The position numbers were made by a program, and so were the translations under genes. The notes beneath the pieces were generated by a model. That model was not told where the DNA came from, did not search any database, and worked only from the letters and a program-made list of their open reading frames with translations. From positions 1 through 20,854 of IMG/VR virus record IMGVR_UViG_3300037503_000027: a DNA stretch of 20,854 nt. One strand, 5' to 3'. Position 1 is the first letter of the stretch, and each line of letters begins with the position of its first letter. Below are positions 4,498-19,872 of this stretch, in pieces. Origin of the DNA: a virus.

Positions 4498-4638
4498 ATG
4501 AGTATGCGCCTCACTAAGCTGTTGGGTTGGGCCTGCCTCATCGCGGCACTCCTCTCCCTCGTCTGGCTCGCGTGCGCGTTGATGGATGCGGTTTCAAACT
4601 ATCGAGGTCCGAATGAAAAAATTAAATATCTCCCCTGA
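4498..4638 (+). CDS. Short single-pass membrane peptide
   Basis: The 46-residue product starts MSMRLTKLL and contains one clear transmembrane segment, about residues 9-29 (GWACLIAALLSLVWLACAL), with positive charge on the N-terminal side and a short polar tail. AAAGGTG lies just upstream of the ATG. The last 26 bases overlap the start of the HerA-like ATPase gene, so the two are probably translationally coupled. Such peptides can anchor a partner to the membrane or act as small holin-like or signalling proteins. Nothing in the sequence chooses between these. Confidence 0.6.
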   Translation: MSMRLTKLLGWACLIAALLSLVWLACALMDAVSNYRGPNEKIKYLP

Positions 4639-6469
4639 CCTCTCGCTGCCCGTGGACGCCGTAACTCAAACCCTCGTCGTCTACGGATCGAAAGGGATGG
4701 GCAAGACGAATTTCGGCAGCGTCTTCGCCGAGGAACTCTACGGCGCGGGTCAACGATTCTCCGTCATTGACCCGATGGGCGTTTGGTGGGGCCTTCAGCA
4801 CGGCGCCCGCCGCGGCGAGCCCGGCCTCGAAGTACTCCTCCTCGGCGGCGTCCACGGCGACCTGCCCATCGAGCCGACGGGCGGCGAGGTGGTCGCGGAC
4901 CTCGTCGCCGACGAGGCGATCTCCGTCGTCGTGGACATCTCCCGCCGCCCGGACGGCCGCGCCTGGTCGAAGGGCGAGAAGGTCCGCTTCGTCACGAGCT
5001 ACATGACGCGCCTCTACGCGCGGCAGGTCGAGCACCGGCGGCCGCTGATGCAGATCATCGACGAGGCCGCGCGCTACGCGCCGCAGGGATTGCGCTCGGG
5101 CGACGTGGACGAGTCCAAGTGCCTCGGCGCAATCGCTATGGTTTGCGAGGAGGGGCGCAACCTCGGGATCGGGCTGACGCTGCTGACGCAGCGCAGCGCC
5201 CGGCTCAATAAGGACGTGGCTGAGTTGGCCGACGTGCTCGTCGCGTTCCGCACCGTGGGCCCCAACTCCGTCGGCGCCATCACCGACTGGCTGGGCGACC
5301 ACGTCGCGCGCGAGCGCCATAAGGAGATCGTCGAGCAGCTCCGGCAGTTGCCCGTCGGCACGGCGCTCGTCATCAGTCCGGGCTGGCTCGGCTTCGAGGG
5401 CGTCGTGCCCGTGCGCGCCCGCCAGACGTTCGACTCGTCGGCCACGCCCAAGGCCGGGCAAGCCCTCCAGGCGCCGGGCCGGGCGACGAAGCCCGACCTG
5501 GAGAAGTACCGCGCGCGGATGACCGAGACCATCGAGCGCGCGAAGGAAAATGACCCGCGTGAGCAGAAGAAAAAGGTGGGCGAGCTGACGCGGAAAGTCG
5601 CGGAGCTGGAGGCCGCGCTTGAGGAAGCTAAGACGGCCACCGCGCCGGCCGAGACGCAGAGGGTCGAGGTCCCCGTCATCAAGCCGGCCGAGTTGATTCG
5701 CATCGAGGCCGTCGTCAAAGAGCTGGACTCCATCGCCGGCCGCGCCGAGGAGTTAATTCAGAATACGGCGGGGCTGTCCGGCCGCTTCGACGAGGCGCGC
5801 GCCGAGGTGAAGGCGGAAGCCGGCCGGCTGGCGGCTTTGATCGAACGCGCGACCGCGGCCCCGGCGGAGCTTCAGCCTTCACCGCCCGCGCGCTCGCTTC
5901 ACGGGGCCGGGCGGCCGACCGCCCCGCTGCCTCGGGCCACGCGCCCGGCGGCGGCCGTCTCGGGTGACGGGAAGCTGTCAGGCCCGGCGCAGCGCATCCT
6001 CGACGAGCTTGCCCGCTTTGAAGCCTTCGGCATCGACGAGCCCGACCGCGCGAACGTCGCGGTCTTCGTCGGCTATCATCAGCGGTCGAAGTCTTTCACT
6101 AACTCGCTCAGCTCACTCCACACGGCCGGGCTCATCGAATACCCCGACGCCGGCAAGATCGCCCTCACGCGGGAGGGGCGCGCGCGGGCGCGTCCGGGCG
6201 AGCCTATCCACTCGCGCCGCGAACTTCACGAAGCTTGGTATCAGCAGCTCGGCGCGGGCACCGTCAGGGCTCGGATGCTGCGGCTTATCATCGAAGCCCA
6301 CCCCGACGCCGTCGGCCGCGCCGAACTCGCCGGGGCGATGGGCTACCACCCGCGCTCCAAGTCTTTCACCAACGCCCTCAGCTCGCTCAGCGGTTTGAAG
6401 CTCGTCAGGTACCCGCGGGAGGGCTACGTCGAGGCGACGGCCTTGTTATTCCCGGAGGGCCTGCGCTGA
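4613..6469 (+). CDS. HerA/FtsK-like P-loop ATPase with coiled coil and two C-terminal winged helices
   Basis: This 618-residue protein starts with a HerA-type ATPase domain (about 1-290). Walker A is GSKGMGKT at 25-32, followed by the FSVIDPMGVWWGL strand; Walker B is LMQIIDEA with Asp150 and Glu151; and LTLLTQRSARLNKDV holds the Gln sensor typical of HerA/VirB4 ATPases. A charged coiled-coil and Ala/Pro-rich linker region follows (about 300-440). Two winged-helix repeats of about 90 residues share the motif GYHxRSKSFTNxLSSL, starting at residues 487 and 577. I recall related ATPases with the same tandem C-terminal repeat in other phages and integrated elements, function unknown. DNA binding with ATP-driven translocation is the natural inference. 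ATG 4613 is preferred over ATG 4586 because GAGG lies five bases upstream. Confidence 0.85.
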   Translation: MKKLNISPDLSLPVDAVTQTLVVYGSKGMGKTNFGSVFAEELYGAGQRFSVIDPMGVWWGLQHGARRGEPGLEVLLLGGVHGDLPIEPTGGEVVADLVADEAISVVVDISRRPDGRAWSKGEKVRFVTSYMTRLYARQVEHRRPLMQIIDEAARYAPQGLRSGDVDESKCLGAIAMVCEEGRNLGIGLTLLTQRSARLNKDVAELADVLVAFRTVGPNSVGAITDWLGDHVARERHKEIVEQLRQLPVGTALVISPGWLGFEGVVPVRARQTFDSSATPKAGQALQAPGRATKPDLEKYRARMTETIERAKENDPREQKKKVGELTRKVAELEAALEEAKTATAPAETQRVEVPVIKPAELIRIEAVVKELDSIAGRAEELIQNTAGLSGRFDEARAEVKAEAGRLAALIERATAAPAELQPSPPARSLHGAGRPTAPLPRATRPAAAVSGDGKLSGPAQRILDELARFEAFGIDEPDRANVAVFVGYHQRSKSFTNSLSSLHTAGLIEYPDAGKIALTREGRARARPGEPIHSRRELHEAWYQQLGAGTVRARMLRLIIEAHPDAVGRAELAGAMGYHPRSKSFTNALSSLSGLKLVRYPREGYVEATALLFPEGLR

Positions 6470-8763: not shown

Positions 8764-8805
8764 TTTTCCTTAGTAAATAACGAAATCTCGCCGCCGCCAT
8801 ACTCT
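8764..8805 (+). promoter_or_regulatory. Conserved intergenic element, copy 1 (putative phage promoter)
   Basis: TTTTCCTTAGTAAATAACGA at 8764-8783 matches 18 to 19 of 20 bases in two other intergenic places (9342 and 19833). It is followed by CTCGCC and TACTCT at 8800-8805. This copy is the most diverged after the core, and lies about 90 bases upstream of the winged-helix gene. Confidence 0.55.
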
Positions 8806-8896
8806 ACGTGTGGCCGGGAGGGCTCTCTAGTCGAATCCCTATCCCTCACCGTTCACGCCCCCATCTACGAGTAAGAGCAAGGAGTATCCCCGGAGC

Positions 8897-9331
8897 ATGA
8901 GCGCCCTTCGCAAACCCGCCGCGAATCAGCACCAGGACGGCCACACCGTTCCCGCCGGCATCCCCAAGCTCAAATCCTTCGAGCACATCGCCGACCCGCG
9001 CGTCCGCCGCGCAAAGGAATACGAGCAGGCCCTCGTCTGGGCGCTCGACCAGTGCCCGCCCGAGTATGCCGGCCGGCTGAAGAAGGAAATCAAATGGGCG
9101 CGCGCCGAGCAGACGCGCGACCAGGACGTTGACCGGGAGGCCATCTATCAGGCCGTGCAGTTCCCGCTGACGCGCTCCGAGATCGCCGAGGACACGGGCC
9201 TGCCCGCCTCGACCGTGTGGAAGCGGTTGCAAGAGCTGTTAGACAGCGGCCGCGTGCGTGAGACGAAGAGGCCGGTGCAGGGCAATAACAAGTTCGTCCT
9301 CATCTACTCAAAGAATCCCATCCTCCCCTGA
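8897..9331 (+). CDS. Winged-helix DNA-binding protein, putative phage regulator
   Basis: The 144-residue product has a C-terminal winged helix-turn-helix. Its parts are AIYQAVQFPLTRSEIAEDTG, the recognition helix PASTVWKRLQELLDSG, and a wing ending in KFVLIYSK (about residues 75-139). The N-terminal half is polar, probably with one long helix (RRAKEYEQALVWALDQ). This is the fold of MarR/ArsR/GntR-like regulators, without a visible ligand domain. It has its own upstream conserved element and a second copy just after its stop, so control of those elements is an attractive but untested idea. AAGGAG lies about 12 bases before the ATG. Confidence 0.75.
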   Translation: MSALRKPAANQHQDGHTVPAGIPKLKSFEHIADPRVRRAKEYEQALVWALDQCPPEYAGRLKKEIKWARAEQTRDQDVDREAIYQAVQFPLTRSEIAEDTGLPASTVWKRLQELLDSGRVRETKRPVQGNNKFVLIYSKNPILP

Positions 9332-9341
9332 AGGGGCGCAG

Positions 9342-9381
9342 TTTTCCTCAGTAAATAACGACAGTTTTTCTCGCCTACTCT
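9342..9381 (+). promoter_or_regulatory. Conserved intergenic element, copy 2 (putative promoter of the lysis/head genes)
   Basis: Thirty consecutive bases from 9343 to 9372 are identical to 19834-19863, followed in both by C, one variable base and a pyrimidine-rich -10-like hexamer (TACTCT here at 9376-9381). The core is TTTCCTCAGTAAATAACGA. No TTGACA-like -35 box is present at the normal distance. The element precedes the endolysin gene by about 135 bases and starts the long late gene block. Confidence 0.6.
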
Positions 9382-9448
9382 CTTCGGTGTGAGGGGGGGC
9401 GGGCGCGCATGTGCTGAGCGGCAGTCCGCACGCCAACCATAAGCGGCA

Positions 9449-9520
9449 ATGAAGACCGCAGCCGCGCCTGTCCCGCCCTCCCCTCACGATTTTTGTCTTC
9501 AGAGGAGAGTCGGCCAGTGA
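9449..9520 (+). CDS. Possible 23-residue leader peptide before the endolysin
   Basis: A short frame from ATG 9449 ends with a TGA that overlaps the endolysin GTG start (GTGA, 9517-9520). The peptide is MKTAAAPVPPSPHDFCLQRR plus three residues. Terminating ribosomes could restart on the endolysin, whose own ribosome-binding site lies inside the leader. The leader's own ribosome-binding site is weak, so the call is tentative. Confidence 0.2.
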   Translation: MKTAAAPVPPSPHDFCLQRRVGQ

Positions 9521-10551
9521 TTACCCTCAAGCAGTTCAGACAGCTCTTCCCGGCTTGCCCCGGAGATAAGGCCGCCCTGTACCAGCCCCTGCTCGTCGCC
9601 GCGATGGCCGAATTCGGCATCGTCACCCGGAAGCGCGCGGCGGCCTTCCTCGCGCAACTCGCGCATGAGTCAAACGACCTCTCGCGCTGGTCGGAAAATC
9701 TCAACTACTCCGCGCGCCGTCTGACGCAGGTCTGGCCGCGGCGCTTCCCGACGCCGGCCGCGGCGGAGCCGTACGCCCACAACCCCCAAGCCCTCGCGAA
9801 CAAGACCTACGGCGGGCGCATGGGTAACACACAGCCGGGCGACGGTTGGAAGTTCCGCGGGCGCTGTCCGATTCAGGCGACCGGGCGCGAGATGTATGAG
9901 CTGCTCGCCGACTTGCTCGGGCTGCCCCTGCTCGAAGACCCCGACCTCCTGCTCGCCCCGCGTCACGGGTTCCGGGCGGCGGCGGCGATCTGGGCGCGCG
10001 TCAAGGGCCTCAACTCCGTCGCCGACAAGTTGAACGGCCGGGGCGACGAGGCCGACCTGCGCCAGCTCGTCAAGATTACGGTCAAGATCAACGGGGGCAC
10101 GAACGGCAAGGAAGACCGCGAGGCGCGCTACCGGGACGCGCTGAAGGTGCTCACGGTTTCTCAGTTCGCGGAGGCCCAGCTTCAGCACACGCTCGACTCG
10201 CTCACGGCCCCGGAGGCGCCCGCGGCCACCCCGCAGGCCGTCCCGACCTCGGAAGCGCAGCCACAGGCCCCGCAGGCGCCCGCGGCGGCCACAGAAAAGA
10301 CGCCCGCGGAGCCGTCGCTGCTCGACGAAATCCCCGTCAACGACGAGACGAAAGCGGTCGGCGCGGGGCTCGCGCGCAAGCTCGGCCTGCGCGCCGGAGG
10401 CGGCATCGTCACGCTCTGGACGATGGGCCTCGGCGGCAAGGTGTTTTTGATCGCGGCGCTGCTCGGCGCCGCCGGCCTCGTCTACTACTACCGGCGCGAG
10501 GTCCGGGCGGCGCTCGTGCTCGCGCTGCGCAAGGTGAAGGGGGGCGCGTGA
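9517..10551 (+). CDS. GH19-family endolysin (chitinase/muramidase-like) with C-terminal membrane segment
   Basis: The catalytic domain (about residues 1-210) has the two GH19 glutamates: Glu51 in LAHESNDLSRW and Glu60 in SENLNYSARRL. It also has the family signature from residue 99, GGRMGNTQPGDGWKFRGR, then PIQATGR. Phage GH19 enzymes cleave the glycan strands of peptidoglycan to release virions. After an Ala/Pro/Gln linker (about 225-275), residues 309-325 (VFLIAALLGAAGLVYYY) form a transmembrane segment followed by a basic end. The enzyme may thus be held at the inner membrane. The usual Gly in the RGRGxIQ motif is Cys here. GTG 9517 is chosen because AGAGGAGAG sits about seven bases upstream; TTG 9493 is the longer alternative. 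Confidence 0.88.
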   Translation: MITLKQFRQLFPACPGDKAALYQPLLVAAMAEFGIVTRKRAAAFLAQLAHESNDLSRWSENLNYSARRLTQVWPRRFPTPAAAEPYAHNPQALANKTYGGRMGNTQPGDGWKFRGRCPIQATGREMYELLADLLGLPLLEDPDLLLAPRHGFRAAAAIWARVKGLNSVADKLNGRGDEADLRQLVKITVKINGGTNGKEDREARYRDALKVLTVSQFAEAQLQHTLDSLTAPEAPAATPQAVPTSEAQPQAPQAPAAATEKTPAEPSLLDEIPVNDETKAVGAGLARKLGLRAGGGIVTLWTMGLGGKVFLIAALLGAAGLVYYYRREVRAALVLALRKVKGGA

Positions 10552-11045
10552 TGGCAGGCAGGGCGAGACAGATTTTCAAGACCGCGGGCGGCGCGGTCTC
10601 GCATTTCGTGACGACGCGCCCGATGTCGGCGCTGCTCGTCGCGGTCACTCTCGGCGCGCTTGCGTCCGTCGCGTGGCAGTTCGCCGGCGGCGTCGTGTCG
10701 GGCGCCCGCTCGGCCATCACTTCAAACCAGGTGCAGGCGACCGAAGCGCAGTCGCACGAGGCGCAGGTGCAGGCGGGGGCGGCCATCGCCTCCGCGAACG
10801 AGACGGCCGTCGAGCGGAAGGTCAACGACCAGGTCCGCGAGAGGACGATCAAGCCCGCGGTCGAGCAGACGGCGCGAGAGGCGGCGGCGGCGAAAGAAAG
10901 AGTCAAGGGAGCACGGTCGAATTATGAAAAAGCTACTAACACGAACGCTCTGCGTCGCGGCGATGATCTCGGCGCTCTGCACCGTCGCAACTGCGCAGAC
11001 CTCGCCCTCCTCTACCCCGGCGAGCGATTCGCCCGTTGTCAGTGA
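10551..11045 (+). CDS. Spanin-like inner-membrane protein (i-spanin candidate)
   Basis: The 164-residue product has a short basic N-terminus, one transmembrane segment at about 25-45 (MSALLVAVTLGALASVAWQF), and a long Ala/Glu/Gln-rich helical region predicted as coiled coil. Its C-terminus ends NCADLALLYPGERFARC. This Rz-like layout, directly after the endolysin and overlapping the next secreted protein out of frame by 122 bases, is the classical arrangement of i-spanin and o-spanin genes. Spanins fuse the inner and outer membranes in diderm hosts. The start shares one base with the endolysin stop; GTG 10548 is a possible alternative. Confidence 0.6.
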   Translation: MAGRARQIFKTAGGAVSHFVTTRPMSALLVAVTLGALASVAWQFAGGVVSGARSAITSNQVQATEAQSHEAQVQAGAAIASANETAVERKVNDQVRERTIKPAVEQTAREAAAAKERVKGARSNYEKATNTNALRRGDDLGALHRRNCADLALLYPGERFARCQ

Positions 11046-11391
11046 CGAGCAGTTGCTCGCCCAACTCGTCGGCGAGGTCAAGGCCGGCCGCGAGCTGGTG
11101 GAGGCGCAGCGCGCCGAGATAGCGACGCTCGAAAAGCAGCTCGCCGCGGAGAAGGCCAACTCGGCGTCGCTCGCGACGAGCTACCAGGCGGCCGAACGCG
11201 AGATCGAGCAGCTCCGCCGGTCAGTCGGATTTCTTGAGCGCGCGATCACCTTGAACGAGCAGACCATCGCCGTGCTCAAGAGTGATAACGAACGATTGAA
11301 GGGCGAGGCGCGGAAGTCGCGCAAGCGGGCCGTGCTCGCGACGCTGGCCGCGGGCGGCATGCTCGCGGCGCGGGTGCTCGGGGTCTTCTAA
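10924..11391 (+). CDS. Secreted coiled-coil protein overlapping the spanin-like gene
   Basis: The 155-residue product starts with a clear signal peptide, MKKLLTRTLCVAAMISALC followed by TVATA and a likely signal-peptidase-I site after ATA. The central part (about 40-125) is a long coiled coil with repeated Glu/Gln/Leu. Residues about 138-154 (AVLATLAAGGMLAARVLGV) could form a C-terminal membrane segment. It starts inside the preceding gene in another frame, as o-spanins do, but it has no good lipobox (Cys at -1 Leu is not canonical) and is far longer than Rz1. It may be a unimolecular-spanin-like or other lysis protein. AAGGGAG lies 12 bases upstream of the ATG. Confidence 0.55.
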   Translation: MKKLLTRTLCVAAMISALCTVATAQTSPSSTPASDSPVVSDEQLLAQLVGEVKAGRELVEAQRAEIATLEKQLAAEKANSASLATSYQAAEREIEQLRRSVGFLERAITLNEQTIAVLKSDNERLKGEARKSRKRAVLATLAAGGMLAARVLGVF

Positions 11392-11727
11392 ATGGCTTTC
11401 AACCTCTCAGCCCGAAACAGGCGGCGCGCGATCACGGTCGCGCGTTGGGCCCTGCCGTTCGTGGCGTCGGCCGTCGCCTCCTGTTTCATCGCCTGGGGGT
11501 CAATCAACTACGCGAAGGGCGCCGAGGCGCAGCGCCTCACGACGGTCGAGCGCGACGTGCAGGCCGTGAAGTCGGACGTGGACAGGGCGCGCGGCGAGCA
11601 CGGCGAGTTCGTCAGGCGCGACGCCTTCCAGATCGTGCTCGACGACTTGAAAGAGATCAAGGGCGACGTGCGCGAGGTGCGCCAGGCGCAGCGGCAAATG
11701 CTGCCGGCGCCCGCCGAGGAGAGATGA
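11392..11727 (+). CDS. Holin/XhlA-like membrane protein
   Basis: The 111-residue product begins directly after the previous stop. It has a basic N-terminus, one transmembrane segment at about 18-38 (ALPFVASAVASCFIAWGSI), then an amphipathic coiled coil (TTVERDVQAVKSDVDRARGEHGEF) and a second helix rich in Lys, Asp and Glu. Small phage proteins with one membrane helix and a coiled coil often accompany endolysins, as XhlA-type proteins or holins. Its place in the lysis cassette supports that role, but there is no family-specific motif. Confidence 0.5.
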   Translation: MAFNLSARNRRRAITVARWALPFVASAVASCFIAWGSINYAKGAEAQRLTTVERDVQAVKSDVDRARGEHGEFVRRDAFQIVLDDLKEIKGDVREVRQAQRQMLPAPAEER

Positions 11728-11736
11728 GGACGAGAT

Positions 11737-11946
11737 ATGCCGAAGGCACCCAACTCCTGTGACGAATGCCGGAGGGAGAGCCCCACGCTCTACGAACGCG
11801 ACCGCCTCCTCATCTGCATCTACTGCCTGCCCGACGAGGCGGTAATCGGCTTGGGCGCCCTCCGCTCCATCAAGGCGGCCGTGACGGGCGTCGTCAACAT
11901 CGAGCGCCGTCGGCGCTCTCTGGCGGGAGGCCCTTCGAGGAGATGA
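11737..11946 (+). CDS. Small zinc-finger-like protein
   Basis: The 69-residue product carries CDEC (residues 8-11) and CIYC (about 27-30), the spacing of a four-Cys zinc finger, followed by a basic helical tail (ERRRRSLAGG). It is preceded by GAGGACGAG and overlaps the next start (ATGA). Comparable two-CxxC proteins are frequent between lysis and packaging genes of phages, without established function. A nucleic-acid or protein-binding role is inferred from the Cys pairs. Confidence 0.6.
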   Translation: MPKAPNSCDECRRESPTLYERDRLLICIYCLPDEAVIGLGALRSIKAAVTGVVNIERRRRSLAGGPSRR

Positions 11947-12512
11947 GCGGGCGGAAGGAATACGCCCGCGCGCCCGAGGTCGAGGCGATAGCCGGGGGGC
12001 TGATCGACCTCTGTCACCCGCACCTTCACGGCGTCCGCATCGAGTACCTGTGGACGAACAAACCGCCCGTCGTCGGCGGCCGGCCGCGCGCGGCGGTCAT
12101 GCGCAAGGTCACGGGGCTCTACGCCTTCCTCGCCACGTCCGGCGCCGAGGGCGAGCCGCGGCCCTTCTTCGTGATGGAAGTCTGCCGGCCCATCTGGCTC
12201 GCCCGCTCGGCCGAGTGGCGGGTCGCGCTCGTGGATCACGAGCTGAAGCACGGCGGACACGACGAAGAGCGGGGCACGCTCTTCATCGTCCCGCATGACA
12301 TCGAGGACTTCGACGACGTGGTCGCGCGACACGGGGCTTGGGATGACGGGCTCGTCAGTTTCGCCGCGGCGCTGGCCGCGGGCGAGGAGGGGAAGACGCC
12401 GCCGGCGTCAGACGCCCCGTTGAGAAACAACAGGTATCAACGCCATGCCGTTTCAGAAGGGGCAAAGCGGAAATCCGCATGGAAGGCCGCCCAAGTCCAG
12501 GGCGCTCACTGA
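11943..12512 (+). CDS. Putative phage metallopeptidase
   Basis: The 189-residue product contains VDHELKHGG, an HExxH zinc-protease motif with His99, Glu100 and His103. It is embedded in the pattern LVDHELKH...HDIEDFDDVVARHGAWDDGLVSFAAAL that I recognise from the 'putative phage metallopeptidase' family. The N-terminal half (KEYARAPEVEAIAGGLIDLCHPHL) matches that family's opening. Its substrate is unknown; the usual position next to terminase genes hints at head or DNA-packaging roles. The start overlaps the previous stop. The last 68 bases run, in another frame, under the next gene, so the C-terminal tail after about residue 165 is poorly constrained. Confidence 0.8.
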   Translation: MSGRKEYARAPEVEAIAGGLIDLCHPHLHGVRIEYLWTNKPPVVGGRPRAAVMRKVTGLYAFLATSGAEGEPRPFFVMEVCRPIWLARSAEWRVALVDHELKHGGHDEERGTLFIVPHDIEDFDDVVARHGAWDDGLVSFAAALAAGEEGKTPPASDAPLRNNRYQRHAVSEGAKRKSAWKAAQVQGAH

Positions 12513-12846
12513 CCTCCTCAGCCTCCGCGGCGACGCCCAGGTCACTCTCGACGGCCAGAATTTGAGCGGCGGGGAGCTGCTCGCGCGCCTCCTCTGGGAG
12601 ATCGCGACCACGGGCCGCGCGAAGTTCCCCGATGGCACGGAGCTGGAAGTCGGGCCGAAGGATTGGCTGGAGACGGTGAAGTGGCTGTACGCCCACATAG
12701 ACGGGCCGGCGCCGAAGCCCGAGCCGGTAGACCCCGACGAAGGTTTGACGGATGAAGACCTCGAAAAAATGTCGGACGACGAACTCGAAGCCCTCATCCG
12801 GCGCAAGCAAAAGCGCGAAGCCAAAGGCCGGCGGCGGGGCGAGTAA
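12445..12846 (+). CDS. terS: DUF5681-like protein, putative small terminase subunit
   Basis: The 133-residue product opens with FQKGQSGNPHGRPPKSRALTD, the FKxGQSGNPxGRP signature of DUF5681 proteins that commonly lie directly before the large terminase gene. The middle is a helical domain (GGELLARLLWEIATTGRAKF...WLETVKWLYAHIDG). The acidic end EDLEKMSDDELEALIRRKQK resembles terminase small-subunit tails. The proposed role is to recognise phage DNA and regulate the large subunit. The gene overlaps the metallopeptidase by 68 bases and the large terminase by 95 bases, both out of frame. The ribosome-binding site is weak (AGG about ten bases upstream). Confidence 0.65.
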   Translation: MPFQKGQSGNPHGRPPKSRALTDLLSLRGDAQVTLDGQNLSGGELLARLLWEIATTGRAKFPDGTELEVGPKDWLETVKWLYAHIDGPAPKPEPVDPDEGLTDEDLEKMSDDELEALIRRKQKREAKGRRRGE

Positions 12847-14332
12847 GAGGGAGAGGCGCACCCACGCCCGCGGGCGTGACGCGCGCGCCTCCCAGGCCGA
12901 CCGCGCCCGCGCCGTTCTGGAGCTGAGGCGACGCCGCCGCAAAAAAGGCGCACGCTCTTTGACATTCGTCGAGTTCGTCACTCGCGTCCGGCCGAGCTAT
13001 CGCTGGTACAAGCACTGCCTCGTCCTCGCGGCAGTGCTTCAGAAGGTAGCCGACGGCGAGATCAAGCGGCTGATGATCTTCATGCCGCCGCGGCACGGCA
13101 AATCCGAGCTGGCCTCCCGCCTCTTCACTGCCTACTTCCTTTACCTCTACCCGGACCGATTTGTCGGCCTCTCCAGCTACTCGGCGGGGCTGGCCTACAC
13201 GCTCTCGCGGGCGGCCCGCGAAAACTACAAAGAAGCGGGCGGCGTCATTGACGGCAAAGCCAACGCCGTTAAGCAGTGGCTCACCGGCGGCGGCGGTTTG
13301 TGGGCGACCGGCGTCGGCGGCGAGGCGACGGGCAAAGGCTGGCATTTGGGCGTCATTGACGATCCCTTAAAGAACGCGGAGCAGGCCGCCTCCGTCACGA
13401 TTAGGGAGAAGCAAAAGGAGTGGTACGGCTCGACCTGGTACACGCGCGAAGAGCCCTGGTCGGACACGGACCCGCACGGCGCGCTCATCGTCATCAACAC
13501 GCGCTGGAATGAAGACGACTTGTCGGGGTGGCTGCTCGCCGAAGAGGTGGAAGGGGAAGAGCCCGAGCGGTGGCACATCGTCTCCTTCGAGGCGATTAAA
13601 GAGGGGGAGGCGCAAAAGTTCCCGGCCACTTGTACCGTCGAGCCCGACTGGCGCAAACCCGGCGAAGCCCTCTGTGAAGAGCGCCGGCCGCTCGCCAAGC
13701 TGAAGCGCATCGAGAAGCGCATCGGCAGTTACTTTTGGAATGCTCTTTATCAGCAACGGCCGCGCCCGAAGGCGGGGCACAAGTTCAAGCTGTCCTGGTT
13801 CAAGGATCGCGTCCTCGGGGCGGCTCCCGTGGACGCCGACCGCGTCCTGTACGTGGACAAGGCCGGGACCGACGGCGGCGGCTGCTACACGGCGATGGTG
13901 CTCATGGGGCGCGAGAAGAGCGGCCGCACCTTCGTCGAGGAAGTGAGGCGCGGCCAGTGGTCGGCGCTGGAGCGCGAGGAGCGGATCAAGAGATTCGCCG
14001 GTGACGTGGCGGCGAAGTACGGGTTGAAATTCAAGGTCTGGCTCGAAGAGGAAGGCGGCTCGGGCGGCAAGGAAAGCGCCGAGGCCAGCGTCCGAAACCT
14101 CGCGGGCTACGCGGCGCGCACGGAGCGCGTCTCGGGCGACAAGGAAATCCGCGCCGAGCCCCTCGCGGCTCAGTGCGAGGCGATGAATGTCTGGCTCGTC
14201 GAGGGCGAGTGGAACAAGGCGTACCTCGACGAGTTGACCTCGTTCCCGTTCGGCAAGTTCAAAGACCAGGTGGACGCATCGAGCGGCGCCTTTAACAAGC
14301 TGGCCGGCAAGCAGTCGATGAAGTTCTTCTAA
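12752..14332 (+). CDS. terL: Terminase large subunit (ATPase-nuclease DNA packaging motor)
   Basis: The 526-residue product contains a packaging ATPase and a RNase-H-like nuclease. Walker A is MPPRHGKSE at 111-119, the strand FVGLSSYS precedes the adenine-binding region, Walker B is GVIDDP with Asp203 and Asp204, and VINTRWNEDDLSGWLL follows as a coupling motif. The C-terminal nuclease starts at VLYVDKAGTDGGG (Asp369) and continues with WLEEEGGSGGKE (about 430-441). It cuts concatemeric DNA and pumps it into the prohead through the portal. ATG 12752 has GAAGG eight bases upstream and overlaps the previous gene by 95 bases. The first 65 residues are very basic and low complexity, so the real start may be later. 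Confidence 0.93.
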   Translation: MKTSKKCRTTNSKPSSGASKSAKPKAGGGASKRERRTHARGRDARASQADRARAVLELRRRRRKKGARSLTFVEFVTRVRPSYRWYKHCLVLAAVLQKVADGEIKRLMIFMPPRHGKSELASRLFTAYFLYLYPDRFVGLSSYSAGLAYTLSRAARENYKEAGGVIDGKANAVKQWLTGGGGLWATGVGGEATGKGWHLGVIDDPLKNAEQAASVTIREKQKEWYGSTWYTREEPWSDTDPHGALIVINTRWNEDDLSGWLLAEEVEGEEPERWHIVSFEAIKEGEAQKFPATCTVEPDWRKPGEALCEERRPLAKLKRIEKRIGSYFWNALYQQRPRPKAGHKFKLSWFKDRVLGAAPVDADRVLYVDKAGTDGGGCYTAMVLMGREKSGRTFVEEVRRGQWSALEREERIKRFAGDVAAKYGLKFKVWLEEEGGSGGKESAEASVRNLAGYAARTERVSGDKEIRAEPLAAQCEAMNVWLVEGEWNKAYLDELTSFPFGKFKDQVDASSGAFNKLAGKQSMKFF

Positions 14333-16587
14333 TGAATAAGAAATCACTCGTCGGGCGCGCGGGGCGCGCGCTCAAGTCTTTCGTCTACGACCCGGCCAAC
14401 CCGGACCACTGGTCGTCGGCCGAGGGCGTCAACTGGCACAAGCTGAACGGCGAGGACGTGAACACTTCGCGGGTCAACGCCTTCGCCAACTCCATCGTCG
14501 CGGCCTGCCTCGCCTGGGGCACGCGCAACTTCCGGCAGGCGTTCATCACCCTGCTCAGGGAGACGGGGCCGAAGCAGTATGAGCAGGTGACGAAGCACCC
14601 GGCGCTCGACCTGCTGAAGCGGCCCAACGACCACTATTCGGCGAAGACCCTCTGGCTCGGCGCATACATCTCCTACCAGCTCGACGGCAACGCCTACATC
14701 ATCAAGGTCAAGAACGCGCGCGGGTTCGGCGTCCCCGTCGAGCTGTACTACGCGCCGCACTGGTGTATGCGGCCCGTCTACACGCCGGGCAGTAAGAAGT
14801 GGATTGACTATTACGAATACACCTTCGACGGGCATTACGCGCGCTTCGCCCCCGAGGACGTGATCCACATCAAGAACGGCGTAGACCCGAAAAACCCGCG
14901 CGTGGGCTACGCGCCGCTGAAGGCCGCGATGCTGGAGGTCTTCACCGACGAGGAGGCCGCGCGCTTCAGCGCCGCTCTCCTCAAGAACATGGGCGTGCCC
15001 GGCATCATCATCTCGTCGGGCGACCCGAACACACAGATCGAGGAAGACCAGGCGAAGGGCCTGATAGAGAAGTTCAAGCGCCGCTTCACCGGCAAGAAAC
15101 GCGGCGAGCCCTTCGTGGCGACCGGCGCGCTGAAGGTTGACACCATCGGCTTCACCCCGGAGGAGCTGAACCTCGAAGGCGTGCGCAGGATTCCGGCCGA
15201 CCGCATCCTCGGCGTCATGGGCATCCCCGGCGCCGTCGTCGGCCTCGGCTCGGGCACGGACGCCTCGACCTACAACAACCTCCGCAACTTCCAGCGCCAG
15301 GCATTCGAGCAGCACCTCATCCCCGTCTGGGATGACTTCGCCGACGAGTTCACCGAACAACTCCTGCGCGACTTCGACGACGACCCGGCGCTCTTCTTCG
15401 ACTTCGACACCTCGGAGGTCGCGGCGCTGCGCGAGGACGAGGACGCCGCGCACACGCGGGCGCGCGAGGCTTTCGAGGCGGGCGGCATCACGCTCAATCA
15501 ATACCGCTCGCTCATCGGGCAAGACCCCGACCCCTTCGGCGATTACTACCTGCGCCTTAGCTCGAAGGCCCCCGTCACACCGCAGGGCGCGGCCGAGCAG
15601 GCGGCGCTCGGGCTCTTCAGCGCATTTTTCACGACGCAGGAGCAGCTCGGCGACGGGCCGGGGTCGGCGGGCGCTCAGACGGCCCAGCAGCTCGCTCAGA
15701 AGGCGTTCCTGGCCGCGTTCGCCGCGGCTCAGATGAAGCGGCTCCCGCCGGCTCCGGCCGAGCGCGCCCCGGCCTCGGGCGGCGCCTTCAAATCTCTCGA
15801 CGACGAGGTCGAGCAGACGCAGGCCGAAGCCGCGCCGCTCTTCGCCGAGGCGCTGCGCGCGGCCTTCGTCCGTCTGGCGGCCGACGTGCCCGAGGAAGTG
15901 GCCGCCGCCGGCGACCTGACGGACGCGGCCGGCGCCGCCGAGATCATCGGCACGCGCGTCGTCGGCCGCCGCGTCGAGCTGTTCACGGCGGCCTTCGAGG
16001 AGATGCACGGCCGCATCGAGGAAGAGGTCAAGGCGCACGTCCGCCGCGGGCTCCAGACGGAGACGGTGAGCAGCGACGCCTCGCGGTCGAGCATCGCCAG
16101 AAACAACGACGCCCGCGTCGCGGCTTACACCTCGGACCTGAAGCAGCAGACCGTGACGGCCGTGAGGGAGGCAATCCTCGCGATGGAAGAGGGCGCTACC
16201 CACGAGCAGATCGTGACGCGCGTCGCTCAGCACGTCTCGGGGCGGCAGATGTATCCCGGCGTTTTCGACTCTGCGCGCAAGCTCGCACTCGGCAACGGCA
16301 TGACCGAGGCCCAGGCCGACGCCGCGGGCGAAGAGGCGGCGAGCCTGCACCGGGCTCAGCTCATCGCCGAGACCGAGACCCGCATCGCGGCGAATTATGA
16401 CTTGATCGAGACGCTGGGCGCGGCCGGCGTCGAGCGCGTCCTCGTCCACGACGGCGCGGATTGCGGCTGGGAATACCACGACCAGGACAAGAAGGCCGAT
16501 GGTATGATTGTGACGCTCGCCCAGGCGCGTCGTCACCCCCTCAGCCATCCACGCTGCCGGAGGCGGTTTACCCCCGTCGCCGAATAA
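14332..16587 (+). CDS. HK97-type portal protein fused to a MuF-like minor head domain
   Basis: The 751-residue product is longer than typical HK97 portals (about 400-500 residues). Residues about 35-420 match the HK97-type portal pattern: NAFANSIVAACLAWGTRNF, HPALDLLKRPN, SYQLDGNAYIIK, YEYTFDGHYARFAPEDVIHIK, a GYAPLKAA segment, and MGIPGAVVGLGSGT. After an Ala-rich linker, the end (about 480-751) looks like a MuF/SPP1 gp7-type head-morphogenesis domain. It finishes with VLVHDGADCGWEYHDQD and HPLSHPRCRRRF, with Cys711 and Cys742 as likely metal-binding residues. The portal forms the DNA entry channel, and MuF proteins are minor capsid components. The start shares a base with the terminase stop. 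Confidence 0.88.
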   Translation: MNKKSLVGRAGRALKSFVYDPANPDHWSSAEGVNWHKLNGEDVNTSRVNAFANSIVAACLAWGTRNFRQAFITLLRETGPKQYEQVTKHPALDLLKRPNDHYSAKTLWLGAYISYQLDGNAYIIKVKNARGFGVPVELYYAPHWCMRPVYTPGSKKWIDYYEYTFDGHYARFAPEDVIHIKNGVDPKNPRVGYAPLKAAMLEVFTDEEAARFSAALLKNMGVPGIIISSGDPNTQIEEDQAKGLIEKFKRRFTGKKRGEPFVATGALKVDTIGFTPEELNLEGVRRIPADRILGVMGIPGAVVGLGSGTDASTYNNLRNFQRQAFEQHLIPVWDDFADEFTEQLLRDFDDDPALFFDFDTSEVAALREDEDAAHTRAREAFEAGGITLNQYRSLIGQDPDPFGDYYLRLSSKAPVTPQGAAEQAALGLFSAFFTTQEQLGDGPGSAGAQTAQQLAQKAFLAAFAAAQMKRLPPAPAERAPASGGAFKSLDDEVEQTQAEAAPLFAEALRAAFVRLAADVPEEVAAAGDLTDAAGAAEIIGTRVVGRRVELFTAAFEEMHGRIEEEVKAHVRRGLQTETVSSDASRSSIARNNDARVAAYTSDLKQQTVTAVREAILAMEEGATHEQIVTRVAQHVSGRQMYPGVFDSARKLALGNGMTEAQADAAGEEAASLHRAQLIAETETRIAANYDLIETLGAAGVERVLVHDGADCGWEYHDQDKKADGMIVTLAQARRHPLSHPRCRRRFTPVAE

Positions 16588-16620
16588 CTGACTGGCAATT
16601 CATTAAGGAGCAATTAACAG

Positions 16621-17796
16621 ATGTCAGCATTTGAGCTGGTACGTTTGGGCGGGGCGGTCAAGGCCCTCGGCAACGGCAAAGTCGGCGGCTACCTCGTCCG
16701 CTTCTCGACGCCCAGCAGCCCGGACCTCGCCGGCGACTTCTTCACCGCCGAGACGGACTTCGACATCACGTCGGGGCACCAATCAACTATCTACTTCGAC
16801 CACGGCCAGGACCCCTTGTTTAAGAAGCTCAAGCTGGGCACGGCCGTCCTGAAGATGGACAGCGTCGGCGTGTTCGTGGAAGGGCAGCTCGACATGGCGC
16901 TCCCCGAGGCGCAGCGCCTCTACGGGCTGGCCGAGGATAAGCAGCTCGGCTGGTCTTCGGGCACGGCCTCACACCTCGTCGAGCGTGAGCGCGAGGGCAA
17001 GGCCCGGCGCATCGTGCGCTGGCCTCTCGGGCTCGACGCGAGCATGACGCACACCCCCTGCGAATGGCGCAACGAAGCGGTCGCGGTCAAATTCATCCGC
17101 CCCGAGCAGGAGAGCAAAGGCGTCGCGGAAGAAGACCTCGATATGTGGGAGGCGAGAATCCGGGCCGAGCGCGAGGAGTACGTGCAGATGCTTCGCCTGC
17201 GCGGCTTCCTCAAGTCGGCAAAGAACCTTTTCGGCGATGCCGTCAGGGAGCGCGAGGAAGACCTCGCGGGGCGCGCGCATGACATCCACGAGCTGACGGA
17301 GACGCTCGCGTCGCTCTTCTGGCAGCTCCAGTGGGTCGCCCTGAGCGCCGCCGAGAGCGGCATCCAGATAGACTTCGCGGCGCGCATCGACGAGATTCTC
17401 GCCGGCTTCGTCGGCGAGGCCCGCGCCGCCGGCCTCCGTATGTGCGGGCTGGGGGAGGCATCAACGAAAACGGCCGGCGACGCTTCATCCACAAATAATT
17501 CTTATGGTAAGCTCGGCGTGAGTTTACCGTTACTCACCCACTCCAAAGCGGTTCGAGATGCCGCGCGTGGGCTACTTGTTCGTATGCAGGAACTGCACGA
17601 ACAACGGCAACGCGAGGGCAAGAGCCGCACCTTGAACGACCAGCACACTCAGACCGCGGAGGCCATCGCCTCCGACCTCGAAGCGGCCGCGAAGGCGGCC
17701 CGCGAGCTGACCTCTGACGTGAAGGCGAACGAGTCCATGCGGCGTGCCCGCGTTGAATATCAACGCACGGTGGCGCGCGGCCTGGGCGTGCGCTGA
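16621..17796 (+). CDS. Prohead protease (HK97 S78-type) with long C-terminal scaffold-like extension
   Basis: The 391-residue product has an N-terminal serine-protease domain (about 1-165). It shows the catalytic His61 in IYFDHG, the Ser in LGWSSGTASH (Ser112 or Ser113), and the closing WPLGLDASMTHTPCEWRNEAV segment with its conserved acidic and Pro residues. This protease cleaves the capsid scaffold domain during head maturation. The remaining 225 residues are unusual: a helical part (about 170-290), a low-G+C, Ser/Thr/Asn-rich linker (about 285-305), and a last coiled coil (MQELHEQRQREGKSRTLN... to the end). The extension may act as scaffold. AAGGAG lies ten bases before the ATG. Confidence 0.82.
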   Translation: MSAFELVRLGGAVKALGNGKVGGYLVRFSTPSSPDLAGDFFTAETDFDITSGHQSTIYFDHGQDPLFKKLKLGTAVLKMDSVGVFVEGQLDMALPEAQRLYGLAEDKQLGWSSGTASHLVEREREGKARRIVRWPLGLDASMTHTPCEWRNEAVAVKFIRPEQESKGVAEEDLDMWEARIRAEREEYVQMLRLRGFLKSAKNLFGDAVREREEDLAGRAHDIHELTETLASLFWQLQWVALSAAESGIQIDFAARIDEILAGFVGEARAAGLRMCGLGEASTKTAGDASSTNNSYGKLGVSLPLLTHSKAVRDAARGLLVRMQELHEQRQREGKSRTLNDQHTQTAEAIASDLEAAAKAARELTSDVKANESMRRARVEYQRTVARGLGVR

Positions 17797-17817
17797 CCGT
17801 CAGAGGAGGCAGGTCAA

Positions 17818-19218
17818 ATGGCATCGAAACTTCAACAGGCACTCCAGCGCCGCGACGAATTGCAGGCGAAGGTGGGGGCGGCCTTCAAGCGTTACGACGG
17901 GGCGGCCGAGGGCGAGGACACGACCGCCGTCGAGAAGGAAATCGAGGACACTAACGCGGAGCTTAAGAGCGCGCAGGCCGAGGTCGAGCGCCTGACAAAT
18001 CTCGAAACGATGCGCGTCGGCGAATCGGACTCGACGAAGGGCATCACGCGCCCCGGCGCGAACGGCGGCGGCGTCGCGCAGCCCGGCACGCTCAGCGCGG
18101 GCGACGCCGAGATCAAGTCGCTCGCGCGGTCCTCGCGCTTCGGCGAGCTGAAGTACTTCAAGGGCGACAACGGCGATGTCGAGGCGTACAAGTTCGCGCG
18201 CTGGTTCCTCGGCACCGTCGGCAACATGAAGTCGCACCTCGACTGGGTGAAGTCCCACGGCATCGAGGTCAAGGCGCAGCAGGAGTCCATCAACACGGCC
18301 GGCGGCTTCCTCGTGCCGGGCGAGTTCAGCTCGCGCATCATCTCGCTCACGGAAGAGTTCGGCGTCTTCAGGCCCAACACGTACATAGAGCCGATGGGCC
18401 GCGACACGAAGAACATACCGCGCCGCCTCGGCGGCGTGCAGTTCTACTTCGTCGGCGAAGGGCAGCGGGGCACCGAGAGCGCGATCACGGGCGACCTGGT
18501 CGGCCTGGTCGCTAAGAAGATCATGGCGATTGTCGTCCGCTCATCCGAGGTGGACGAGGACGCGCTCGTGAACTTCGGCGACGTGCTCGCGGGAGACATC
18601 GCCGCCGCGAAGGCCGAGAAGGAAGACCTCTGCGGCTTCAACGGCGACGGGACCGCCGGCTACGGCGGCACCGTCGGCCTGCGCACGATGCTCAAGAGCC
18701 TCTCCGCCAACCGCGCGGAGATCGCCGGGCTGCACGTCGCGGCCGGGCCGACGTGGGGCGACATCACCCTGCGCGACCTCTCGGCCGTGCTGGGGCTGCT
18801 GCCCGCCTTCGTCTTCCGCCGCGGCAAGCCGAAGTGGTACACGTCGCAGACGTTCTGGGCGAACGTGATGCAGCCCCTCGCGCTGGCGGCGGGCGGCACG
18901 ACGGCCGCCGAGGTCCAGAAGGGCACGGATAAGATGTTCCTCGGCTACCCCGTGGAGACTACCGAAGTCTTCCCGCACCAGGAGGCCGCCGACGACATCC
19001 CCCTCACCTTCGGCGCGCTGGAACTTTCGTCCACGCTCGGCGACCGCCGTCAACTGACGCTGGCCGTCTCGACCGAATACAAGTGGGCCGAGGACCAGAT
19101 CGGCATCAAGGCGACGGCCCGCCTCGACATCAAGAATCACGATGTCGGCAACGCCTCGGCCGACCCGGAGGAGCGGCAGGCCGGGCCGATGGTCGGCCTC
19201 ATCACCGCCGAGAGCTAA
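17818..19218 (+). CDS. Major capsid protein (HK97 fold)
   Basis: The 466-residue product begins with a coiled-coil delta-type domain (about 1-65: LQQALQRRDELQAKVGAAF, then DTNAELKSAQAEVERLTNL), then a flexible Gly-rich stretch (about 66-100). The HK97 core follows, with INTAGGFLVPGEFSSRIISL near residue 160, RRLGGVQFYFVGEGQ, and DLCGFNGDGTAGYGG, all characteristic of this fold. The last third (QLTLAVSTEYKWAEDQIGIKATARLDIKNH) is the usual P-domain/C-terminal strand end. It builds the icosahedral shell, with the N-terminal domain serving as built-in scaffold for removal by the upstream protease. AGAGGAGG lies eight bases before the ATG. A hairpin follows the stop. Confidence 0.92.
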   Translation: MASKLQQALQRRDELQAKVGAAFKRYDGAAEGEDTTAVEKEIEDTNAELKSAQAEVERLTNLETMRVGESDSTKGITRPGANGGGVAQPGTLSAGDAEIKSLARSSRFGELKYFKGDNGDVEAYKFARWFLGTVGNMKSHLDWVKSHGIEVKAQQESINTAGGFLVPGEFSSRIISLTEEFGVFRPNTYIEPMGRDTKNIPRRLGGVQFYFVGEGQRGTESAITGDLVGLVAKKIMAIVVRSSEVDEDALVNFGDVLAGDIAAAKAEKEDLCGFNGDGTAGYGGTVGLRTMLKSLSANRAEIAGLHVAAGPTWGDITLRDLSAVLGLLPAFVFRRGKPKWYTSQTFWANVMQPLALAAGGTTAAEVQKGTDKMFLGYPVETTEVFPHQEAADDIPLTFGALELSSTLGDRRQLTLAVSTEYKWAEDQIGIKATARLDIKNHDVGNASADPEERQAGPMVGLITAES

Positions 19219-19249
19219 CGCCACGCCCTTGTGGTTTCGAGTTGAGACC

Positions 19250-19281
19250 GGGAGGGGCGCACTCAAAACTGCGCCCCTCCC
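19250..19281 (+). terminator. Strong hairpin after the major capsid gene (terminator-like or RNA stabilising)
   Basis: GGGAGGGGCGCA (19250-19261) pairs perfectly with TGCGCCCCTCCC (19270-19281) over an eight-base loop. No T-run follows; the next gene's ribosome-binding site starts seven bases later. It may partly terminate transcription or protect the capsid mRNA 3' end, giving more capsid than downstream proteins. Confidence 0.6.
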
Positions 19282-19299
19282 ACAGCCAGGAGAAAGCTG

Positions 19300-19749
19300 A
19301 TGATTAACTCTCAGGAAACTAGGACCGTGGTGATTACGCCCCCGCAGGGGCCGGTGGACAACGCCGCTTTCGTCACGGCCACACTCGACACGCTGGGCGC
19401 CGGTTACGTTGACTTCATCGTCGTGCTGGGCTCGATAGACGCGGCGCTCGCCGCGCTGAAGGTCCGCGAGTCAGACGCCTCAGACATGACCGGCGCGGCC
19501 GACGTGCCCGGCGCGGACTTCAGCGTCGCGCCGTCCGCCCTGCCCGGCGCGACCGACGATAACAAGGCGTACCACATCGGCCTCGACATGCGGGGCCGCA
19601 AGCGTTACCTCGACCTCGTCCTGACGGCCGGCGACGGCGCGGCGGGCACCTTCGCCTGCGTCATCGCGCAGCTCTCGCGGCTCGCCTCGTCACCGCGCAC
19701 GGCCGCCCAGCGCGGCTTTGCGGGCGAGCTGCTCGTGCCGACGCTGTAA
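19300..19749 (+). CDS. Putative capsid decoration/head structural protein
   Basis: The 149-residue product is predicted to be rich in beta strands (TRTVVITPPQG, FVTATLDTLGAGYVDFIVVLGS, KRYLDLVLTAGD). The segment LGSIDAALAALKVRESDASDMTGAADVPGADF resembles small phage structural proteins that sit directly after capsid genes and often decorate or stabilise heads. No catalytic motif is present. AGGAGA lies about seven bases before the ATG. It is framed by two strong hairpins (19250-19281 and 19773-19812), so its transcript level may be set separately. Function is inferred from position and strand content only. Confidence 0.6.
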   Translation: MINSQETRTVVITPPQGPVDNAAFVTATLDTLGAGYVDFIVVLGSIDAALAALKVRESDASDMTGAADVPGADFSVAPSALPGATDDNKAYHIGLDMRGRKRYLDLVLTAGDGAAGTFACVIAQLSRLASSPRTAAQRGFAGELLVPTL

Positions 19750-19772
19750 TCCTTCCCCCACGGCGACGGCAC

Positions 19773-19812
19773 GAAGGGGCCGGGCTAGGTTCAATCCTCG
19801 CCCGGCCCCTTC
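19773..19812 (+). terminator. Long GC-rich hairpin after the decoration gene, probable terminator
   Basis: GAAGGGGCCGGGC (19773-19785) pairs perfectly with GCCCGGCCCCTTC (19800-19812). The 14-base loop can close by AGG-CCT for a few more pairs. Only a weak T-rich stretch (ACATTTCATAAAT) follows. A new promoter-like element starts 20 bases later, so this is a natural transcription boundary. Confidence 0.6.
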
Positions 19813-19832
19813 ACATTTCATAAATCCGCCCC

Positions 19833-19872
19833 ATTTCCTCAGTAAATAACGACAGTTTTTCTCACCTATCCT
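19833..19872 (+). promoter_or_regulatory. Conserved intergenic element, copy 3 (putative promoter of connector/tail genes)
   Basis: ATTTCCTCAGTAAATAACGA is followed by CAGTTTTTCTC, identical over 30 bases (19834-19863) to the copy before the endolysin, with the -10-like hexamer TATCCT at 19867-19872. The spacing between AGTAAATAACGA and the hexamer is 14 bases here and at 9342, and 16 in copy 1. It lies just after a hairpin and 65 bases before the next start codon. Confidence 0.6.

Follow-up and report, generated by a model that had tools for sequence, protein, structure and literature searches.

The window analyzed here, a virus record of 20,854 bases (IMGVR_UViG_3300037503_000027), carries a short element repeated three times between its genes, which raises the question of what this element does and which protein, if any, reads it. 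The genes of the window follow the order integrase, winged-helix (WH) protein, endolysin, large terminase, portal, HK97-type capsid and connector; a temperate life is likely, judging from the integrase gene. Positions 411–1241 encode a GGDEF domain (Pfam, 6.2e-17) whose LGGDEFA motif is intact, possibly a phage-carried diguanylate cyclase. The product of positions 4586–6469 (627 aa) is ATPase-like and matches FtsK-like and terminase PHROG families weakly. The features of the window used below are as follows.

8765–8783, + strand: core of putative promoter copy 1, 1 mismatch to TTTCCTCAGTAAATAACGA, with the box GTAAATAACGA at 8773–8783
8800–8805, + strand: -10-like hexamer TACTCT of copy 1, 27 nt from the box start; whole copy 8765–8805, upstream of the WH gene
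8897–9331, + strand: gene of the WH regulator, 144 aa (Pfam HTH_24, 1.6e-6; seven-phage alignment), putative activator reading the boxes
9343–9361, + strand: core of putative promoter copy 2, 0 mismatches, box at 9351–9361
9376–9381, + strand: -10-like hexamer TACTCT of copy 2, 25 nt from the box start; whole copy 9343–9381
9389–9487, + strand: structured leader RNA starting at the predicted transcription start (~9388), with a long basal stem and the conserved inner core GTGCTG..GCAGCCGCGCCTGTC
9517–10551, + strand: gene of a GH19-type endolysin (PHROG endolysin, 2.6e-73), first in the lysis–packaging–head block after copy 2
19773–19812, + strand: intrinsic-terminator-like hairpin GAAGGGGCCGGG...CCCGGCCCCTTC, directly before copy 3 and kept in the relative L134
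19834–19852, + strand: core of putative promoter copy 3, 0 mismatches, box at 19842–19852
19867–19872, + strand: -10-like hexamer TATCCT of copy 3, 25 nt from the box start; whole copy 19834–19872

A search with the core TTTCCTCAGTAAATAACGA at no more than 3 mismatches detected three matches in the window, all on the + strand, against an expectation of 0 from 100 dinucleotide shuffles. The first-pass annotation had placed the core at 8764, 9342 and 19833; the three copies were confirmed, and the coordinates proved to be off by one. Its statement that two copies are identical over 30 bases holds for copies 2 and 3, which are alike over exactly 30 bases (34/35 in BLASTN), and the TACTCT or TATCCT hexamer that it saw after each copy was found at the positions given above. 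All three copies are intergenic with a gene downstream, as it had described: copy 2 is located between the WH and endolysin genes, and copy 3 between the small gene that follows the capsid gene and the connector block, upstream of a small gene and the head–tail connector. As to the lack of a normal -35 box, a search for a sigma-70-type -35/-10 pair at the three window copies found none, with a consensus that may not be that of the host. An exact 16-mer core search of genome_contigs gave 39 matches, which is no more than the chance level in 257 Gb, and exact core matches in viral contigs outside the one relative contig were unrelated sequence.

The comparison set consisted of seven phage contigs that have the WH gene in common, namely, the window and six IMG/VR relatives (L134, L054, L056, L153, L154, and L180). 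One contig, IMGVR_UViG_3300037503_000028 (loci L009, L013, L055, and L134), keeps all three copies in place, and the five further phages were reached through WH homologues with 33–41% identity. In all seven phages, one box is located upstream of the WH gene and one downstream, the latter directly before the leader even where ~270 bp are inserted in between (L180). A third copy stands before structural genes in the window, L134, L153, and L054 (4/7 phages), which brings the number of sites to 18. In L054 (8340–8405) and L180 (before 10685), the stretch from the WH gene to the second box contains short tandem TCATCACTTATCAC repeats.

Other routes did not extend the set. The capsid used as bait gave no relatives; a pattern of box plus TACTCTC gave 115 matches, with a WH gene only in the known L153 and L154 contigs, and the leader covariance model found nothing in the 80 of them to which it was applied. 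A leader pattern in viral_contigs gave 18 matches, 15 of them unrelated and 3 on contigs already in hand. The WH profile detected no true homologue in 396 genomes of the phylum of the Acidobacteriia MAG (where the best terminase match had 41% identity), 241 of that of the Opitutales MAG, 148 of that of the Binatia MAG, or 398 of the Duganella phylum, and a WH homologue was absent from named phages.

Copies lying inside genes in relatives were named by the first-pass annotation as evidence against its reading; the 18 sites in the seven phages occupy gaps. Three of them touch a listed ORF: one overlaps the end of the ORF before it by 4 bases, and the other two fall within ORFs that are probably spurious there, one being an overlapping frame and the other having an over-extended start.

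A box of the GTAAAAATA type is present in all seven phages, each phage or group of phages having its own version: GTAAATAACGA in the window, and GTAAAAATARA, GTAGAAATAGR or CCGAAAATCAA in relatives. It is nearly identical within each phage and different between phages. At 16/18 sites, a -10-like hexamer (TAnnnT-like) starts 24 or 25 nt after the first base of the box; the distance is 27 at copy 1 of the window and of L134. The hexamers seen are TACTCT, TATCCT, TAAACT, TATGCT, TAAAAT, TAATCT, TTATCT, TAACTT, TAACGT, and GATAAT, of which TAACGT was read from the sequence of the third L054 site. If transcription starts about six bases past the hexamer, the box spans approximately -37 to -27, which is the place of the host -35 element. 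With a two-block PWM, the training sites scored 20–29 bits, other places on the real strands at most 16.1 and reversed controls at most 18.1, in a test that is partly circular because the top-scoring sites are those from which the PWM was built; no other place in the contigs approaches the training-site scores. The L054 boxes were left outside the PWM and placed by eye; they score low with it and were recognized by position and by their own repetition. Taken together, the repeated elements are very probably promoters, and in kind they resemble phage promoters with a box in place of the -35 element, such as those of T4 MotA. The label that the first-pass annotation gave them, an AT-rich element marking transcription units, was an understatement. 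In L054, positions 11592–11660, between the terminase gene and the next gene, hold the third box (CCGAAAATCAA) and, after it, an inverted repeat, CGGCTAACGTG...CACGTTAGCCG, possibly a second leader.

As for the protein that might read the box, the WH regulator is named mainly because its recognition helix changes along with the box from phage to phage. The window and L134 have the same box and the same recognition helix, ASTVWKRL. The helices YSTVYKLL (L056), YATVYKIL (L154), and HATAYKIL (L153) go with the common box GTAAAAATA or nearly so, whereas YKTAYKIL in L180 goes with GTAGAAATA and YGTVRENL in L054 with GAAAATCAA, which makes about five independent pairs. In the seven-phage alignment, an N-terminal motif, SFxHIxDPxxRRAKEYEQxL, is more conserved than the DNA-binding helix. 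The WH probably activates the boxes, as this co-variation suggests. Profile searches with the WH matched general winged-helix families only, with no Q family and no phage activator family.

The second promoter copy is followed by a structured RNA. In each of the seven phages, a hairpin of 67–100 nt begins within ~3 nt of the predicted copy-2 start, occupies almost the entire 5' untranslated region and ends ~20–35 bases before the next start codon. Its fold z-scores are -3.6 in the window, -3.1 in L134, -3.7 in L054, and -4.1 in L056, and both the folds of four members and the seven-phage consensus show one interrupted stem, not two stem-loops. The stem sequences differ between phages and the pairing is kept: 92.9% of cells are paired in the seven-sequence alignment, while slid-partner controls give only 30–54%. 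Changes on both sides were found in 12/18 pairs versus 4.9 in shuffles, none of 500 of which reached 12; these counts lean towards the structure, because it was itself derived from this alignment, and the sequences are related. MAFFT misaligned whole leaders, and the loops of the window and L134 (the first two rows of the alignment) were therefore shortened. In an arm-swap matrix, own arms pair best in 6/7 rows, the exception being the close pair L153/L154.

The covariance model matches the window leader with 52.8 bits. A model of the other four members, with L180, L153, and L154 left out, recovers L180 where expected (E 0.0013); L153 is the best match of its locus but with E 1.4, and L154 is missed. 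No further member was found among 64 other terminase relatives, and none of the Rfam covariance models matched the leader of any of the seven phages at E values up to 1, so that the leader matches none of the tested RNA families, as the WH matches none of the tested regulator families. That the leader RNA is real and conserved is almost certain. It appears to belong to the promoter and not to a gene, since the next gene differs between phages. From the copy 2 box to the leader end (145 bases), the window and L134 are 97.9% identical, with surrounding genes at 71–87%, and the 180 bp after the leader are unrelated (41%). The first lysis-region genes (10617–11162 in L134, 9517–10551 in the window) are unrelated right after the leader, which gives a sharp exchange boundary.

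Terminator-like hairpins divide the region further. The hairpin before copy 3 shows a compensating A-T to C-G change between the window and L134, and in L180 a hairpin resembling a terminator separates the WH gene from copy 2. In L153 (10624–10654), the copy-2 -10 lies inside the 5' arm of a terminator-like hairpin, GCCCCTACTCTC...GAGAGTAGGGGC-TTTTT, whose 3' arm is the leader start; read-through and newly started transcripts would then fold differently. A similar but imperfect hairpin holds the copy-2 -10 in L154 (about 10420–10450), and this overlap was rejected as a general feature. The segmentation by terminators fits separate activator-driven units and calls for caution in taking the leader for a general antiterminator; the terminator before copy 3 speaks against a leader that makes polymerase ignore all terminators.

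These data may be read in more than one way. If the boxes were operators, the WH would act as a repressor that covers the -35 region of host-type promoters, its own included, and silences the late units during lysogeny. The overlap with the -35 position and the autoregulatory placement suit a repressor equally well, and so does the temperate life suggested by the integrase. However, no -35 was recognized under the box in the sigma-70-type search, so the promoters would be poor once freed, and the WH gene stands just before the lysis block, the lambdoid place of a late regulator, not with the integrase; repression is considered rather unlikely. The constant -10 spacing is what is expected of a pair recognized by a sigma factor, and a host alternative sigma, or simply a host promoter type with no relation to the WH, could account for it. 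Such a reader would hardly explain a box that is near-identical within a phage but varies from one phage to another as the WH recognition helix does. No phage lacking the WH was found to carry the box–leader pair among the terminase relatives and the box-pattern matches. Host recognition is the least probable of the explanations considered.

The order of regulator, promoter, short structured RNA, lysis and terminase genes is also that of lambdoid phages (for Q, qut and pR', see PMC6266700). Copy 2 could accordingly be pR'-like; the WH would then be a Q-like factor that loads on the promoter DNA, and the leader would correspond to the lambda 6S RNA, the short RNA made in the absence of the factor. 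Against this stand the box common to three promoters, that of the regulator itself included, and the absence of a match between the WH and any Q family. In addition, the U-tract after the hairpin is weak in the window and missing in L134, so the leader is not a general terminator; antitermination of the Q type is judged unlikely. A separate question, compatible with WH-driven promoters, concerns the leader alone, which may only stabilize the 5' end or direct mRNA processing and play no part in transcription. A long stem right at the 5' terminus suits end protection, and the sequence of the basal stem is free to vary; the inner core GTGCTG..GCAGCCRCGCYTGTC, however, is retained beyond pairing needs in four phages. 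A stabilizer remains a tenable minority view, and an action of the leader on transcription elongation is put forward equally tentatively, 5'-end protection being as likely.

The explanation that we favor, and consider probable, is a class of phage promoters in which a phage-specific box replaces the -35 element and is probably read by the WH, with autoregulation and a promoter-tied leader at the lysis–packaging unit. Box, spacing, positions and the paired hairpin are directly visible in the comparison; promoter activity, binding by the WH, activation instead of repression and leader function are deduced from them. The activator–promoter reading is best supported because all seven phages retain the box, the -10 spacing and the two box positions on either side of the WH gene, and because phages that differ in the box sequence also differ in the WH recognition helix. 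The reading of the first-pass annotation, phage promoters needing a phage activator, possibly the WH, is in this respect the one that comparison favors, as an interpretation of sequence; the leader, the terminator and the box variation had escaped it.

In the proposed mechanism, the phage-specific box at approximately -37 to -27, in a fixed register 24–25 nt before a host-type -10, would most likely be bound by the WH encoded between copies 1 and 2, which would recruit the host RNA polymerase. The WH would thus turn on its own gene via copy 1 (positive feedback), the lysis–packaging–head block via copy 2, and, past a terminator, the connector block via copy 3. Transcripts from copy 2 would start at about +1 with the hairpin leader. 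Since the leader remains linked to the promoter even when another gene follows, it most likely acts not on the translation of one gene but on transcription or on the whole transcript, by RNA-based antitermination or antipausing (cf. HK022 put) or by 5'-end protection. It is also conceivable, if improbable, that the system has two parts, the C-terminal winged helix of the WH activating the box promoters and its basic, nearly invariant N-terminal motif (HIxDPxxRRAKEYEQ) riding with polymerase or binding the copy-2 leader. If so, WH and leader would form an RNA-plus-protein switch, both starting and protecting late transcription.

The arrangement seems to be a new form of the phage late-gene switch. 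How late genes are controlled is well understood for few phages, and these infect few hosts. A compact module of regulator, box and structured leader absent from Rfam was recovered here from sequence alone in seven uncultivated phages. The co-changing boxes and recognition helices offer candidate orthogonal activator–promoter pairs, and the leader is a new RNA element heading a phage late operon, whose action on polymerase is directly assayable.

Among known systems, the same box repeated in a fixed register to the -10, as found here at 18 sites in 7 phages, is characteristic of activator-type promoters. In the T4 middle promoters, the MotA box replaces the -35 element, is centered at -30 and lies 12 ± 1 bp from the host -10 (PMC2988021). 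The present box likewise takes the -35 place, at ~-37 to -27 and ~14 bp from a host-type -10; the box itself is different, MotA works with AsiA, and here the units are lysis and structural ones, the phage is of the temperate type, and a single module comprises box, regulator and leader. Phage P2 has one activator, Ogr, for several late promoters. The same arrangement, with non-consensus -35 elements, is known for Mu C (PMC4461284). Several putative late promoters, presumably served by one activator and giving no match to a sigma-70-type -35/-10 pair in the window, are seen here as well; unlike here, Mu C binds at sites that overlap the -35 or are located upstream of it, and the WH matches no phage activator family by profile. 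We know of no leader RNA of the present kind at Mu C or P2 Ogr promoters.

In phage lambda, the 6S RNA is the short RNA of the pR' region. The succession of regulator gene, promoter, short structured RNA, and lysis and packaging genes resembles that of lambda Q, pR' and 6S; it departs from lambda in its three promoter copies with a common box, in a leader that is no conserved terminator and in the lack of Q homology. HK022 put is a structured RNA of ~70 nt just after a promoter heading a long operon and acts on polymerase without a dedicated protein (PMC9378689). The present leader has the same place as putL; put, however, consists of two stem-loops and serves early operons, whereas here one long interrupted stem without an Rfam match heads a lysis–packaging operon. 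The conAn system of pLS20-family plasmids likewise combines a protein with a structured RNA, located where a very long operon begins (PMC8955417); its protein and RNA are different, and in the present phages the promoter of the RNA is preceded by the protein gene.
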